From: Rhizobium acidisoli
Lineage (GTDB): Bacteria > Pseudomonadota > Alphaproteobacteria > Rhizobiales > Rhizobiaceae
Assembly (NCBI RefSeq): GCF_002531755.2
Contig: NZ_CP035000.1
Coordinates: 310,001 to 374,000 of the forward strand
Length of the DNA: 64,000 nucleotides
Reading direction: 5' to 3'
The translations under genes and the position numbers were made by a program. Under the pieces are notes generated by a model. The model was not told where the DNA came from, ran no database searches, and saw only the letters and a list, made by a program, of their open reading frames with translations. Positions 1,004 to 50,721 of this stretch are shown here, piece by piece; within the stretch, counting starts at the first letter, position 1, and every line of letters starts with the position of its first letter.

Positions 1004-2134
1004 TCAGGCCACGGCCGAGATCGGGGCGCTGTCGTTCGGCAGCAGCCGCGCCACTGCGCTGAGGAGATCGGTCTGCGATATCAGCCCCAGGATCCGGTAA
1101 TCGTCATCGACAATGATGACGGCATGCGTGCGCCCGTCCGTCAGAACGGGAAGCAGCGACAGGGCCGGATCCGAAGGCCTTGCCACCGCCGGCTTTGAAA
1201 TTGCGCCTGCGATTGTACCGATGCTGGTCGACAATTCCCGCAAGCCGACGCTGCCAATCAGGCGGCCCTCCCGGTCCTTTACCGGCAGCGTGCGGATATT
1301 GTGCTTCAAGAGCAGGTGCCGTGCGGCATCCGGTTCTGCCGCTTCACTGACGCCGATCACGTCGCGCGACATGATATCGGCGCAGCTGATCTTGCCGTTC
1401 GAGCGGATCGCCGCCTGCAGCTCGACCTGCTGCAGCAGCCGGCCGAGATCGGCGCGATCGATATCGAAGGTTTCGTCGAGCGCCGCAAGGGCGGCATCGA
1501 CATCCTCCTCACGAAAACCCACCCGCACGGCGGACGGCAGGTCAATCGTGCGATGGGTGTTCTCCGCGGGTTTTGGAACGACATGCGGATAGTTCCGCCG
1601 GGAAAGCTTGTGGAACAACAGGCCGAGGCCGACGAGAAGGCAGGAATTCAGGGCGACCGGCACGAAGGGAAAGAGGAAACCCCAGCCGGCGACGACAGGG
1701 CCGCCGAGCACCGCGGTGAGTGCCGCAGCACCTCCCGGCGGATGAAGGCAGCGCGTGAAAGACATGGCGCCGATGGCAAGCGACACGCCAACGCCGGTCG
1801 CGATGATCGGATCGCGGATGAAATAAGCGGCGATGATTCCCATCAGGGCGGAAATGGTATTGCCGCCGATGATCGACCACGGCTGCGCCAGCGGGCTGGC
1901 CGGCACCGCGAAAAGAAGCACCGCCGACGCCCCCATCGGCGCGACGATCAGCGGAAGATGCGGCCCCTGCCCGAACAGATAGCCGCTGATGACGCCGGTG
2001 AGGCCGATGGCCAGCAAAGCGCCGACGCATGCGATCAGCCGCTCGCGCAGGGTCGCACCGGCCAAAATCGGTGAAAACAGACGGAAGCGACGGAAGCGGC
2101 TCGGTCCCACCTTCGGGGAAACGGGATACTGCAT
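1004..2134 (-). CDS. HPP family membrane protein with paired CBS domains
   Basis: A 376-residue protein. The N-terminal half has about five hydrophobic membrane segments (residues roughly 30-190) with the family signature CLHPPGGAAAL near residue 128. The C-terminal half has two CBS motifs: about residues 250-305, beginning SCADIMSRDVIGV, and about 310-370, ending ILGLISQTDLLSAVARLL. CBS pairs bind adenine nucleotides, so a regulated membrane channel or transporter is plausible. HPP proteins of plants and cyanobacteria have been linked to nitrite transport, but nothing here proves that. The gene leads into the DUF6522 gene. The ATG at 2132-2134 is the only sensible start before the membrane region. 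Confidence 0.8.
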   Translation of the reverse strand: MQYPVSPKVGPSRFRRFRLFSPILAGATLRERLIACVGALLAIGLTGVISGYLFGQGPHLPLIVAPMGASAVLLFAVPASPLAQPWSIIGGNTISALMGIIAAYFIRDPIIATGVGVSLAIGAMSFTRCLHPPGGAAALTAVLGGPVVAGWGFLFPFVPVALNSCLLVGLGLLFHKLSRRNYPHVVPKPAENTHRTIDLPSAVRVGFREEDVDAALAALDETFDIDRADLGRLLQQVELQAAIRSNGKISCADIMSRDVIGVSEAAEPDAARHLLLKHNIRTLPVKDREGRLIGSVGLRELSTSIGTIAGAISKPAVARPSDPALSLLPVLTDGRTHAVIIVDDDYRILGLISQTDLLSAVARLLPNDSAPISAVA

Positions 2135-47482: not shown

Positions 47483-47779
47483 ATGGCCTTTTTGATTGAG
47501 ATCTTGCTGCCAGTGTCCCCCGGTGACGCCCATGGACGGTTCGATGCCGTGCGCAGTGAGCTGGCCGAAAAGTTTGGGGGCGTAACCATATATGCAAATG
47601 TTCCGGCGGAGGGGATATGGACCGAGGGTGGTTCCGTAGAAATAGACCATATCATCGTGGTCGAAGTGATGGCGAGCAATCTCGACCGGCAGTGGTGGGC
47701 ATCTTATCGGAAGACCTTGGAGATCCGTTTCGAGCAAAACGAGATCGTCATCAGGTCAACGGCAATCGACCGGCTTTGA
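47483..47779 (+). CDS. Conserved hypothetical protein
   Basis: 98 residues from the ATG at 47483, which gives a start FLIEILLPVSPGDAHGRFDA typical of a small conserved proteobacterial family. The protein has conserved-looking SELAEKFGGVTIYANVPAEG and RQWWASYRKTLEIRFEQNEI segments. Function is unknown. An in-frame ATG five codons earlier (47468) is possible; neither has a strong binding site. Confidence 0.6.
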   Translation: MAFLIEILLPVSPGDAHGRFDAVRSELAEKFGGVTIYANVPAEGIWTEGGSVEIDHIIVVEVMASNLDRQWWASYRKTLEIRFEQNEIVIRSTAIDRL

Positions 47780-48340
47780 CAGCTCGCGCTGCGCCTGGAT
47801 GCCGATAATCCTCCCGCCGATCATTGAAGCGCGCGGGCGAACGATCCTTTCAATGCAGGATTGGCCCGATCGCTCTTGTTCGGCGCCGAGCACAGAGGGG
47901 CTTGTCGCGCAGGCACCAGGGCTCGACGTTCCCTCGCAACTGCTCGCATGCCTGCCCTACGTGTGACAATCATCGTGCTCGACATCATCTCGGCGGATCG
48001 CCGCCTGCGAAACTCAATGGCGTCGCCTCGCTGAGCGAGAGTTTCGAGCGATAAGAATGCCGCGCCAGAAGCGCAGTATCGCTAGTAACAGTCTTAAACT
48101 TTAAGCGTGGCGTGTTTGGGGTTCGAATGTCGGCGTTAAACTCATAACTCCTGACATGCCCGGCCTTTACTCCGGCGACGCGCAGCACGCCAGTACATTG
48201 CATCGTAACATATCTGCGGTTTTTGGAGCGGCTCAGTCGCTATCAAACCAGGGCGGCCGGCGCTGATCCAACGCTGACAGGAGACGAAACCGCGGGATGC
48301 ACAGTGTCTAAACTCCCCGCGGTGTCTGATGCCGAACCGA
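47780..48340. other. Intergenic, no gene supported
   Basis: Only weak frames are open on either strand. The region ends at the U-run of the sRNA terminator on the minus strand. Confidence 0.4.
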
Positions 48341-48378
48341 AAATGAAAAAGCCTGCCGCGGGAGGAGGTGCGGCAGGC
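48341..48378 (-). terminator. Rho-independent terminator of the sRNA
   Basis: A 9-bp GC-rich perfect stem (GCCTGCCGC/GCGGCAGGC), whose loop is the anti-SD motif, is followed on the minus strand by TTTTTCATTTT. Confidence 0.8.
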
Positions 48379-48511
48379 TCTTATACGAAACCGAACAGCG
48401 ACTGGGAGGAGATGCCGCTGTTCCCTCAGGCGTCCCTTGGGAGGAGGAGTGAGGCGCCTGATTCGAAGCCCTGCGGGAGGAGGTGCATGGCTTCGATCTG
48501 CTCATCATACG
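48341..48511 (-). ncRNA. sRNA hairpin array with anti-Shine-Dalgarno loops (alpha-r14/cuckoo-like)
   Basis: Read on the minus strand, four consecutive hairpins each expose a CCTCCTCCC-type loop. Stems in plus coordinates are 48463-48470/48489-48496 (8 bp), 48426-48432/48455-48461 (7 bp), 48393-48400/48416-48423 (8 bp) and 48351-48359/48370-48378 (9 bp). Loops contain GGGAGGAGG on the plus strand (GGGAGGAGA in the third). The last hairpin is followed by TTTTTCATTTT, a rho-independent terminator. Rhizobial alpha-r14 and cuckoo RNAs have this design and are thought to pair with ribosome-binding sites. The 5' end is a guess from a GATAAT box at 48518-48523. Whether this is one RNA or two is open. 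Confidence 0.75.
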
Positions 48512-48592
48512 CCCGGCATTATCGTTCACCAGCGCTTATGCTGCAGCGCAGCTATGATGCAGAAGCATTGCTACCTGTCGGGTCTGCATAAA

Positions 48593-48910
48593 TTATAACC
48601 AGGTTTTTAACGAGCCCTCCGAGCCACCCGCCAGGGCTAAATATATGTCATTGAGCCTTTCGACTGGCATCGCCGACGGGAGGAACAAACGGGCGCATTC
48701 CCGTTGCAGCGTATTGATCCCCATGCGGCGATCTCGGATATTGCGTGCGCCGTCGGCATCCATGTCAACCAGCTCTTCCGGGAGGAGCTTTCCCGATGAT
48801 ACGTCAAAGCAGTATCCTGTGGCCTGGGGAGAACCATTCTGTTGGATGAAGCCGACTTTCGCGAAGTCGCGCGGCAGGGGACACCCACTCCTGCTACCAT
48901 TTAATTGCAT
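48593..48910 (-). CDS. Hypothetical protein (tentative)
   Basis: 105 residues from the ATG at 48910. Codon use is mixed but has rhizobial-like third positions in the second half. The segment DMDADGARNIRDRRMGINTL and the helix RECARLFLPSAMPVERL look protein-like. There is no clear ribosome-binding site and no known family. It lies directly upstream of the sRNA array on the same strand. Confidence 0.35.
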   Translation of the reverse strand: MQLNGSRSGCPLPRDFAKVGFIQQNGSPQATGYCFDVSSGKLLPEELVDMDADGARNIRDRRMGINTLQRECARLFLPSAMPVERLNDIYLALAGGSEGSLKTWL

Positions 48911-48991
48911 GGCATGCCAATAGCCGGTTGCTGCGGCGCAACATTGATGATTTGATACTTTCGTCGCTAAACTCTTTGCTGGATAATCATC

Positions 48992-49399
48992 TTGTTAGAC
49001 GGCCATGATCAAAAACACGTGATCCTGATTGTAGAAGAGAACCGGGGCATCCGCGCAGAGGCGGTAACCGCGTGTAAAGAGTCCGGCTATGGGACAATCG
49101 AGGCTTCTAATGGCGCAGATGCGCTGGAGATCCTGGAAAGACGGGACGACGTCAGTCTGGTGTTCACATCCGTTAATATGAAAGGCCCGATAGATGGTGT
49201 CCAACTCGCGGTGCGCGTTCATGCAAGATGGCCAAAGCTAGCGATTGTTATGACGTCCGGGGTCGTAAGTCTGCGACAGTCGCTGCTACCGCAACGCTTT
49301 AGATTTCTCAGCAAACCATACGCGACCGAGCACTTAATGACATGCTTCAAGCTCCTAATCGAATTCGAACATCGACAAGAAGTCTCGTCCCCACAATGA
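48992..49399 (+). CDS. Degenerate response-regulator receiver (pseudo-receiver)
   Basis: 135 residues with a TTG start. The receiver fold is recognisable (VILIVEENRGIRAEAVTACK, ADALEILERRDDVSLVF, the conserved Thr in LAIVMTSG and Lys in RFLSKPYATEH), and no output domain follows. The phosphorylated Asp is replaced by Ser60 (LVFTSVNMKG; codon TCC), and the acidic pair is EEN instead of EDE. It therefore cannot be phosphorylated normally. It could be a decoy or partner-binding protein, or a decaying CheY/FixJ-like copy. Confidence 0.7.
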   Translation: MLDGHDQKHVILIVEENRGIRAEAVTACKESGYGTIEASNGADALEILERRDDVSLVFTSVNMKGPIDGVQLAVRVHARWPKLAIVMTSGVVSLRQSLLPQRFRFLSKPYATEHLMTCFKLLIEFEHRQEVSSPQ

Positions 49400-49754
49400 G
49401 GTCTGCAAGGCAGAAACGCGAGCGCCGTTTCGCTGGCCTATCTCTGTGACAGACTGAAAAATCGGGCCGATGGAGGACGCTCGAATTCGACCCCTTTCGC
49501 CATGACGCGACGCGGCAGCTTTATCGTCAATGCGCCTTGCAGCGAGCATTCCGTCTGGCGCGATATCGGCAGCGTCGTGCTGATCCAATGGGATCGGCCC
49601 GTGAAAATACTTCAAGAGGAAATAGCGTGAAGTCGTAAGTCTAAGTTGTTGAACACGCTCTCAAATCCGGGGCCTTGAACAGATACACCATGCCCCTGTT
49701 AAAGGACCAAGAAAATTCCCGAAAATTTTTCCTCATCGATGCCTTGAAACCAAA

Positions 49755-49861
49755 ACTCCGACAACCAGATAATTTTCGCTGGATGCCACAAGGGCCAGCG
49801 ACAGCAAAGGCGTCGGTTGTCCGGCGTCTTCGTACCATGTTGCTTCAAGGAGGATATGGCT
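49755..49861 (+). promoter_or_regulatory. ROSE-type RNA thermosensor in the hsp20 leader
   Basis: The leader folds into nested hairpins: GACAACC (49760-49766) with GGTTGTC (49815-49821), and inside it CGCTGG (49777-49782) with CCAGCG (49795-49800). A 3' hairpin, CCAT (49835-49838) with ATGG (49856-49859), encloses TTGCTTCAAGGAGGAT, where the TTGCT box faces the AGGAGG site. This is the known arrangement of ROSE elements, which hide the ribosome-binding site at low temperature. The 5' end of the transcript is not visible. Confidence 0.75.
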
Positions 49862-50338
49862 ATGGCAACATCTTACGACTATGCACCGCTTTTCCGCTCG
49901 AGCGTTGGCTTCGATAGGGTCTTTAACCTTCTGGAAAACGCGCAGCGGGCCCGCTCGATCAGCGATTGGCCGCCTTACGATATCATCAAGTCGGGTGAGG
50001 ACACCTATCGCATCACTGTCGCCGTCGCCGGCTTCTCGCAGGATGATCTTAACCTCACATTCCAGTCAAACCTGTTGACGATCATCGGAAACAAAGGCGA
50101 AACGCAAAGCGAAAGCTATCTGCATCGCGGGATTGCCGGCCGGCCATTCGAACACCGTTTCGAATTGGCCGATCACGTCCGGGTCTCCGGTGCTGATTTA
50201 ACCAACGGTCTCTTGTCCATCGATCTGGTTCGAGAAATTCCCGAGGCGATGAAGCCACGGAAGATCGATATTCAGACGAATGCGCAACTTGCAAAATCAG
50301 CGAGTGCACCGCAGATCGAAACTCAGAAAGCCGCCTGA
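49862..50338 (+). CDS. Small heat-shock protein, Hsp20 family
   Basis: 158 residues from the ATG at 49862, eight bases after AGGAGG; an ATG at 49856 in the same frame lies too close. The alpha-crystallin domain (about residues 32-135) runs from WPPYDIIKSGEDTYRITVAV to GLLSIDLVREIPEAMKPR, with FRSSVGFDRVF at the N-terminus as in class A IbpA-like proteins of rhizobia. It acts as an ATP-independent holdase for unfolding proteins. Temperature control is likely through the leader RNA. Confidence 0.92.
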   Translation: MATSYDYAPLFRSSVGFDRVFNLLENAQRARSISDWPPYDIIKSGEDTYRITVAVAGFSQDDLNLTFQSNLLTIIGNKGETQSESYLHRGIAGRPFEHRFELADHVRVSGADLTNGLLSIDLVREIPEAMKPRKIDIQTNAQLAKSASAPQIETQKAA

Positions 50339-50421
50339 GGGCTTGATCATCGCAGTGGCGCTGGGAACCAGCGCCCTGCCTACCCTCTCTTTAACAATCG
50401 GGCTTTTGAAAGGAGTGCGCC

Positions 50422-50721
50422 ATGAAACCCGATATGTTTAGAACACCTGTAACGGTTCTGGTCGGTCTCGGTATTCCGACGCGGGTCTCCACAGTCATGC
50501 ATGCCTATCGGCTTCTGCTGGAATGGTCAAATCTGAATGATGATCCAGCTCATGCCGTTGCCGTAAAAACCTGCAAGGCAGCGCTTGCGGGCGAAATAGA
50601 GGCGGAGACTGCCCGTAGCGTGTTTGTCGTTTTTGCTGAGAAACACGATCTGCTCGCTCCCGAGATCAGTGCCGTGGTGACATCACGCAACCGGCACAGC
50701 AGCGACCCGCACCTGCGATGA
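50422..50721 (+). CDS. DUF982 domain protein
   Basis: 99 residues, start behind AAAGGAG. The domain (VTVLVGLGIPTRVSTVMHAY, then AVAVKTCKAALAGEIEAETA) is the DUF982 pattern common in rhizobia. It follows hsp20 by 83 bases on the same strand and may be co-transcribed with it. Function unknown. Confidence 0.7.
   Translation: MKPDMFRTPVTVLVGLGIPTRVSTVMHAYRLLLEWSNLNDDPAHAVAVKTCKAALAGEIEAETARSVFVVFAEKHDLLAPEISAVVTSRNRHSSDPHLR

Follow-up and report, generated by a model that had tools for sequence, protein, structure and literature searches.

An unannotated gene for a four-hairpin alpha-r14/cuckoo-type small RNA in Rhizobium acidisoli

Introduction

Rhizobial RNAs in which repeated hairpins present a common loop motif were described by Reinkensmeier et al. 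(2011; PMC3927594), whose models include RFMSmelA075, with three hairpin loops of the motif, and RFMSmelA099, with four, and who proposed one family in which the number of modules varies. The same paper notes copies on each replicon, lists relatives in R. leguminosarum, and cites an Agrobacterium member, L5, that was verified by sequencing and Northern blotting. SmelA099 (smrA6) of S. meliloti, which gave RFMSmelA099 its name, is tabulated as a 160-nt transcript from pSymA 1328175–1328334 on the minus strand (PMC7143759, PMC2873474). The cuckoo motif is described as having 2–4 hairpins (PMC4504443).

The function of such RNAs is best illustrated by NfeR1, which is activated by LsrB from a TGCA-N6-GCAT site at −72 to −60/−57 and silences ntrBC and transporter mRNAs through redundant loops (PMC10746234). 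SmelA075 is reported to be heat-induced and bound by Hfq, and to occur in shorter forms as well (PMC2873474, PMC5928592). Only one of the six NfeR1-type copies in S. meliloti was reliably detected on Northern blots (PMC7143759). The DUF1127 gene ccaF1 of R. sphaeroides shares a transcript with CcsR1-4, and pairs of this type are called CIN1 loci (PMC10253847).

Results and Discussion

We analyzed a window of 64,000 nucleotides from R. acidisoli (contig NZ_CP035000.1, positions 310,001–374,000), and the positions given here are those of the window unless a contig is named. The window carries a genuine gene, missing from the annotation, for a bacterial regulatory RNA of a known kind, the four-hairpin form that was described in rhizobia in 2011 (Table 1). 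Within 48341–48511 on the minus strand, four consecutive hairpins are separated by spacers of 1, 2, and 10 bases, and in the 5'-to-3' direction of the RNA their loops are CCTCCTCCC, CCTCCTCCC, TCTCCTCCC, and CCTCCTCCC. The original prediction of adjacent hairpins with exposed motif loops, the last of them a terminator with a T-run, was thus borne out; the stems, which it had put at 7–9 bp, are partly longer (8+3, 7+3, 10, and 13 pairs, in order, in the minimum-energy fold). The structure was established by folding a 177-nt stretch, which reached −73.7 kcal/mol compared with −54.9 ± 4.0 for shuffled sequences (z = −4.7); none of 200 shuffles was equally stable. The 8-mer CTCCTCCC lies on the minus strand at 48360–48367, 48404–48411, 48439–48446, and 48475–48482. 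By itself it is not rare: the whole window has six copies where 2.6 would be expected, and 11% of shuffles (11 of 100) also contain six or more; what is non-random is that four fall within ~125 nt and that each occupies a hairpin loop.

Table 1. Features of the small RNA locus (window coordinates)
Feature	Position	Strand	Basis
Predicted sRNA, ~156 nt, four-loop alpha-r14/cuckoo type (SmelA099-like)	48343..48498	-	ar14 91.7 bits; R2 156.4 bits; ends from alignment to published SmelA099 ends
Hairpin 1, loop CCTCCTCCC 48475-48483, beyond the ar14 model	48463..48496	-	Fold; 93.3% of cells paired (69 homologs)
Hairpin 2, loop CCTCCTCCC 48439-48447	48426..48461	-	Fold; both-sided changes in 9/10 pairs
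Hairpin 3, loop TCTCCTCCC 48404-48412	48393..48423	-	Fold; both-sided changes in 8/10 pairs
Hairpin 4, terminator, loop CCTCCTCCC 48360-48368, T-run TTTTT 48350-48346	48347..48382	-	Fold; almost invariant (69 homologs)
LsrB/VtlR-like box CATAGCTGCGCTGCA, putative LysR-type activator site	48542..48556	-	Sole window match; box position in homologs
-10-like element GTATGAT	48504..48510	-	Recurs across upstream alignments of homologs

Membership of the family was established by searching the window against Rfam at gathering thresholds, as the original prediction of an alpha-r14/cuckoo-type sRNA had proposed. Two matches were obtained, ar14 (RF02344) and a ROSE element; CcsR1 (RF02791) gave no match in the window at its gathering threshold. 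The ar14 match, at 91.7 bits against a cut-off of 58.8 (E = 2.2e-15), runs from 48344 to 48466 on the minus strand, covers positions 1–123 of the 123 in the model, and upholds the predicted type. The model describes exactly three hairpins and its match spans hairpins 2–4, with hairpin 1 upstream, so that the predicted RNA, with four, departs from ar14 in number. It agrees with RFMSmelA099, which has four hairpins with CCUCCUCCC-like loops: three loops of the window RNA are CCUCCUCCC and one is UCUCCUCCC. The view that four loops exceed the usual number for this group, which accompanied the original prediction, does not hold, given RFMSmelA099 (2011) and the 2–4 hairpins of the cuckoo motif; hairpin number and loop motif both fit the description of the cuckoo family in PMC4504443.

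SmelA099 is the closest described RNA. It matches positions 1–157 of a four-hairpin model, R2, as does the window RNA (155.1 and 156.4 bits, respectively). The genomic stretch of SmelA099 contains four loops, starts AATCGAAGC where the window has GATCGAAGC, and ends after the same terminator. The two RNAs are alike in their hairpins, loops, ends, and length (160 versus ~156 nt), but differ in stem sequence and come from different replicons and genera. This end-to-end homology settles the kind of RNA and provides the best estimate of its ends. The RNA would accordingly run from 48498 to 48343; the hairpins therefore lie within the interval first proposed (48341–48511), but its remainder, 48499–48511, is promoter DNA and not RNA. 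Rfam ar14 omits the first hairpin of four-loop members, which are consequently filed as three-loop RNAs, and the gene described here fills a gap in the annotation of a rhizobial replicon. A four-hairpin model such as R2 separates four-loop from three-loop RNAs largely, though not perfectly.

A BLAST search with the window RNA gave 78 near-full-length matches, from which four that repeated a place already included were dropped; the remaining 74 reduced to 69 distinct RNAs, including that of the window. Exact (C/T)CTCCTCCC loops number four in 58 of these, three in nine, two in one, and none in one, a conservation that is partly selected because similarity to the window RNA was the criterion for choosing the homologs; neither the covariation nor the upstream features are subject to this selection. 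In the alignment of the 69 RNAs (A3), 96.9% of cells hold standard pairs. Changes on both sides of a pair were found at 20 of 42 pairs, compared with a mean of 9.8 in shuffled alignments that ignore relatedness (none of 500 reached 20), and they occupy 173 cells, against a shuffled mean of 41.1 and at most 31 in slid versions. By helix, 1/10, 9/10, 8/10, and 2/12 pairs show such changes; hairpins 1 and 4 vary too little to contribute, and the evidence rests on hairpins 2 and 3. The four-loop class thus covaries across 69 distinct RNAs, and the locus passes the test of covariation at homologous loci that had been named as a possible refutation.

The position of an upstream box was also established. 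The box in the window is the only match there even when one mismatch is allowed (0.39 expected). A box like CATnGCTGCnnTGCA, of a slightly looser form, starts 57–60 nt upstream of the RNA start in 62 of the 69 homologs, and this form was found in none of 1305 hundred-base control segments from the same loci. The box resembles both the LsrB site of NfeR1 and the reverse complement of the VtlR motif CAATGCAGCCATGCA that is quoted for Brucella, with which, counted by hand, one homologous locus (L096) agrees at 14 of 15 positions and the window at only 10 of 15. In sequence and position, the box would fit an sRNA promoter activated by LsrB/VtlR. Control by LsrB appears to vary, as deletion of lsrB in S. 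meliloti is reported to have had no effect on AbcR1/2 in one study (PMC7486931). A simple promoter/terminator scan, whose rules exclude non-consensus promoters and 10-base loops, found no promoter or consensus sigma-70 site, and its terminator search returned only one unrelated terminator-like site.

We consider it very probable that the locus is a stand-alone gene for one trans-acting sRNA of ~156 nt that is activated by LsrB/VtlR, folds into four hairpins, and silences multiple mRNAs at their ribosome sites. Its transcription, LsrB control, Hfq binding, and target silencing would follow the pattern of tested relatives. A LysR-type activator (LsrB/VtlR) bound to the box would bring RNA polymerase to a weak promoter whose −10-like element is GTATGAT; transcription would start near 48498 and end at hairpin 4, once the four hairpins had folded. 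The single-stranded (C/U)CUCCUCCC loops could then mimic the anti-Shine-Dalgarno sequence of 16S rRNA, pair with GGGAGGAGG-like ribosome-binding sites, and block the translation of several mRNAs, probably with Hfq. The source genome contains 51 occurrences of GGGAGGAG-N3-9-ATG (23 forward and 28 reverse; two repeat a site already counted, and another is hairpin 1 itself read on the complementary strand), against five of the reversed pattern, which shows only that suitable ribosome sites exist.

The alpha-r14 sRNAs, including NfeR1, share the loop motif, the terminator hairpin, and a LysR-type box equally far from the first loop, but they have three hairpins, and in the genomes examined the largest contig carries most of them (31 of 38 loci outside the four-loop class). 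CcsR1-4 of Rhodobacter, which accompany CcaF1 in the CIN1 locus, share the loop motif but are separate RNAs from one precursor, and RF02791 falls below its cut-off in the window. Of the four-loop-class loci, 73 could be examined over 500 nt or more of upstream sequence; 38 of them are preceded by a DUF1127 gene, on the same strand in every case and never on the opposite one, and the match ends 166–238 nt before the RNA. No DUF1127 match was found beside the window RNA, which belongs to the other 35. The source genome has seven PF06568 matches, six on its contig C1, one on C4, and none on C3, the contig of the window. One three-hairpin RNA of this genome (L002; C1:1538104–1538653 and 1539092–1539212, minus strand) has two DUF1127 genes on the same strand after it and not before it. 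The strict form of the box is absent from this locus, as from others of its type.

It is possible, although we think it unlikely, that the window holds a decaying and silent copy, in which the structure is intact and transcription, or the need for it, is gone. The best match among plasmid records, to pRLG201 of Rhizobium leguminosarum bv. trifolii WSM2304, covers 97% of 47500–50500 at 93.5% identity, and the DNA flanking the RNA is 92.7% and 96.9% identical. The RNA itself carries 16 changes in 154 nt compared with 121 in 2164 outside it (p = 0.02). All four loops are altered (one through a deletion of 10 bases), as is the −10-like element, although the changes are not concentrated in the loops beyond chance (6/47 versus 10/107, p = 0.57). 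The ortholog scores 35.7 bits with ar14, below the cut-off, and 93.4 bits with R2. The WSM2304 ortholog is decayed and the window copy is intact; the loss of the ortholog's loops indicates that the locus can be dispensable and that selection can lapse. The window copy also scores lower with R2 (156.4 bits) than the three four-loop paralogs in its genome (174.0–177.9 bits), which are further copies of the same kind; it has no nearby DUF1127 gene, and AraC-like debris, identified by eye, adjoins it. Against silence, the window copy is intact in its four loops and their stems as well as in its terminator, box, and GTATGAT element, and the DUF1127 gene is missing from 35 of 73 homologs as well.

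The original prediction had left open whether the locus encodes one multivalent RNA or two in tandem. In the second case, hairpin 1 would form an RNA of its own, ahead of a separate ar14 RNA with three hairpins. The ar14 model does end at hairpin 2, arrays of separate three-loop groups occur in other genera (L166, L172, and L174), and CcsR1-4 are processed out of one precursor (PMC10253847). However, the single base between hairpins 1 and 2 could not accommodate a promoter or terminator, and the looser box occurs inside none of the 69 RNAs. Of the 73 loci of the four-loop class that have an exact loop, 42 carry the strict box GCATnGCTGCnnTGC, as do 36 of 57 other loci; the distance from it to the first exact loop is most often 75 nt in the former (27 of 42) and 76 nt in the latter (30 of 36). 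A distance of 112 nt in six four-loop-class loci arises because the first loop is altered. In both classes, then, the promoter and the first hairpin are equally far apart, which indicates that the extra hairpin is part of the same transcript. This distance, the conservation of the whole unit, and the co-terminal SmelA099, tabulated as a single 160-nt transcript, favor one multivalent RNA, and we regard a tandem pair as very improbable. Processing could nevertheless split a four-loop RNA, as the short forms of SmelA075 lack loops.

That the hairpins belong to a coding sequence, or are palindromes strung together by chance, has a negligible probability: three overlapping mechanical open reading frames (48223–48591 and 48368–48598, plus strand; 48308–48529, minus strand) have no Pfam match, loop spacings that vary by 1–2 nt among paralogs break any shared reading frame, and the covariation and the Rfam ar14 match speak against chance. 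The tandem pair, coding sequence, and chance were therefore rejected on the basis of the one-base spacer, the box position, the lack of a Pfam match, the covariation, and the Rfam match.

The single four-hairpin RNA is one of several related copies in the source genome, which comprises five contigs (7.5 Mb) and has eight ar14 matches, all above the cut-off. Those on the largest contig (L001–L003) are of the three-hairpin type, with three, two, and two exact loops. Contigs C2, C3 (701,880 bases, the contig of the window), C4, and C5 each carry one copy with four exact loops. If the box works, a single stress regulator would call up the same loop sequence from six copies (L001, L003, and L004–L007), a point of relevance to sRNA redundancy and dosage. 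An eighth (L008, C3:562800–562913) and three loci elsewhere (L074, L075, and L076) are divergent, ar14-like, and on secondary replicons, with one exact loop each, and perhaps form a separate subtype.

In 151 genomes of the family, R2 (E ≤ 0.001) matched in 135, three-loop relatives included at lower scores. With 115 bits as our own dividing line for the four-loop type, a match was found in 18 of 151 genomes and 14 of 109 genera; the best loci of those 18 genomes have four exact loops in 17 cases and three in one (L155). Eighteen is a lower bound, because a locus below the line (L163, 89.5 bits) has four exact loops. A draw of 150 genomes from the order gave a highest score of 74.4 bits outside the family. 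In nine near-complete genomes of the genus, for which 55 of 57 ar14 matches were tabulated (two weak ones inside tabulated loci were left out), 16 of 17 four-loop-class loci lie off the largest contig, compared with seven of 38 other loci (Fisher p = 1e-7); the class of the 17 was set by homology, and they have four exact loops in 11 cases, three in four, two in one, and none in one. A query with 48300–48700 matched 479 plasmid records.

This work adds an intact unannotated copy, covariation of the four-loop class, the box distance that this class shares with other loci, and its bias toward contigs other than the largest. For the four-loop class, neither the box distance nor the bias was found in the literature searched, outside of which lies the cuckoo family's own paper, and we make no claim that they are unpublished.

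We tentatively suggest, while thinking it rather doubtful, that the four-loop RNAs of Rhizobium and its relatives form a distinct, largely plasmid-borne lineage. Each replicon would bring its own broad blocker of ribosome sites, wired to an LsrB-type regulator of the host through the conserved box, and plasmid gain or loss would alter the dose of a shared regulatory loop. Loop number would shift by recombination between identical loops, of which L073 is an apparent product. This locus (contig C4 of genome G025, ~1500–1625, plus strand) encodes a three-loop RNA that resembles a four-loop one except that a single loop joins the 5' arm of hairpin 1 to the 3' arm of hairpin 2, and it suggests that loop number changes through loop-to-loop deletion. 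L166, L172, and L174 each contain three successive three-loop groups, with nine exact loops in ~430–700 nt.

The window contains other features near the sRNA. Upstream of it, at 48690–48810 on the plus strand, the end of an AraC-type regulator is recognizable by eye, probably a gene remnant. A single-domain response regulator receiver protein (48992–49399, plus strand; PF00072, 50.3 bits) adjoins the sRNA. The ROSE RNA thermometer (RF00435, 49779–49868, plus strand, 54.3 bits) is immediately 5' of an Hsp20 gene (PF00011, 61.1 bits) that extends to 50338, and together, at 49779–50338, they form an ordinary heat-shock arrangement.
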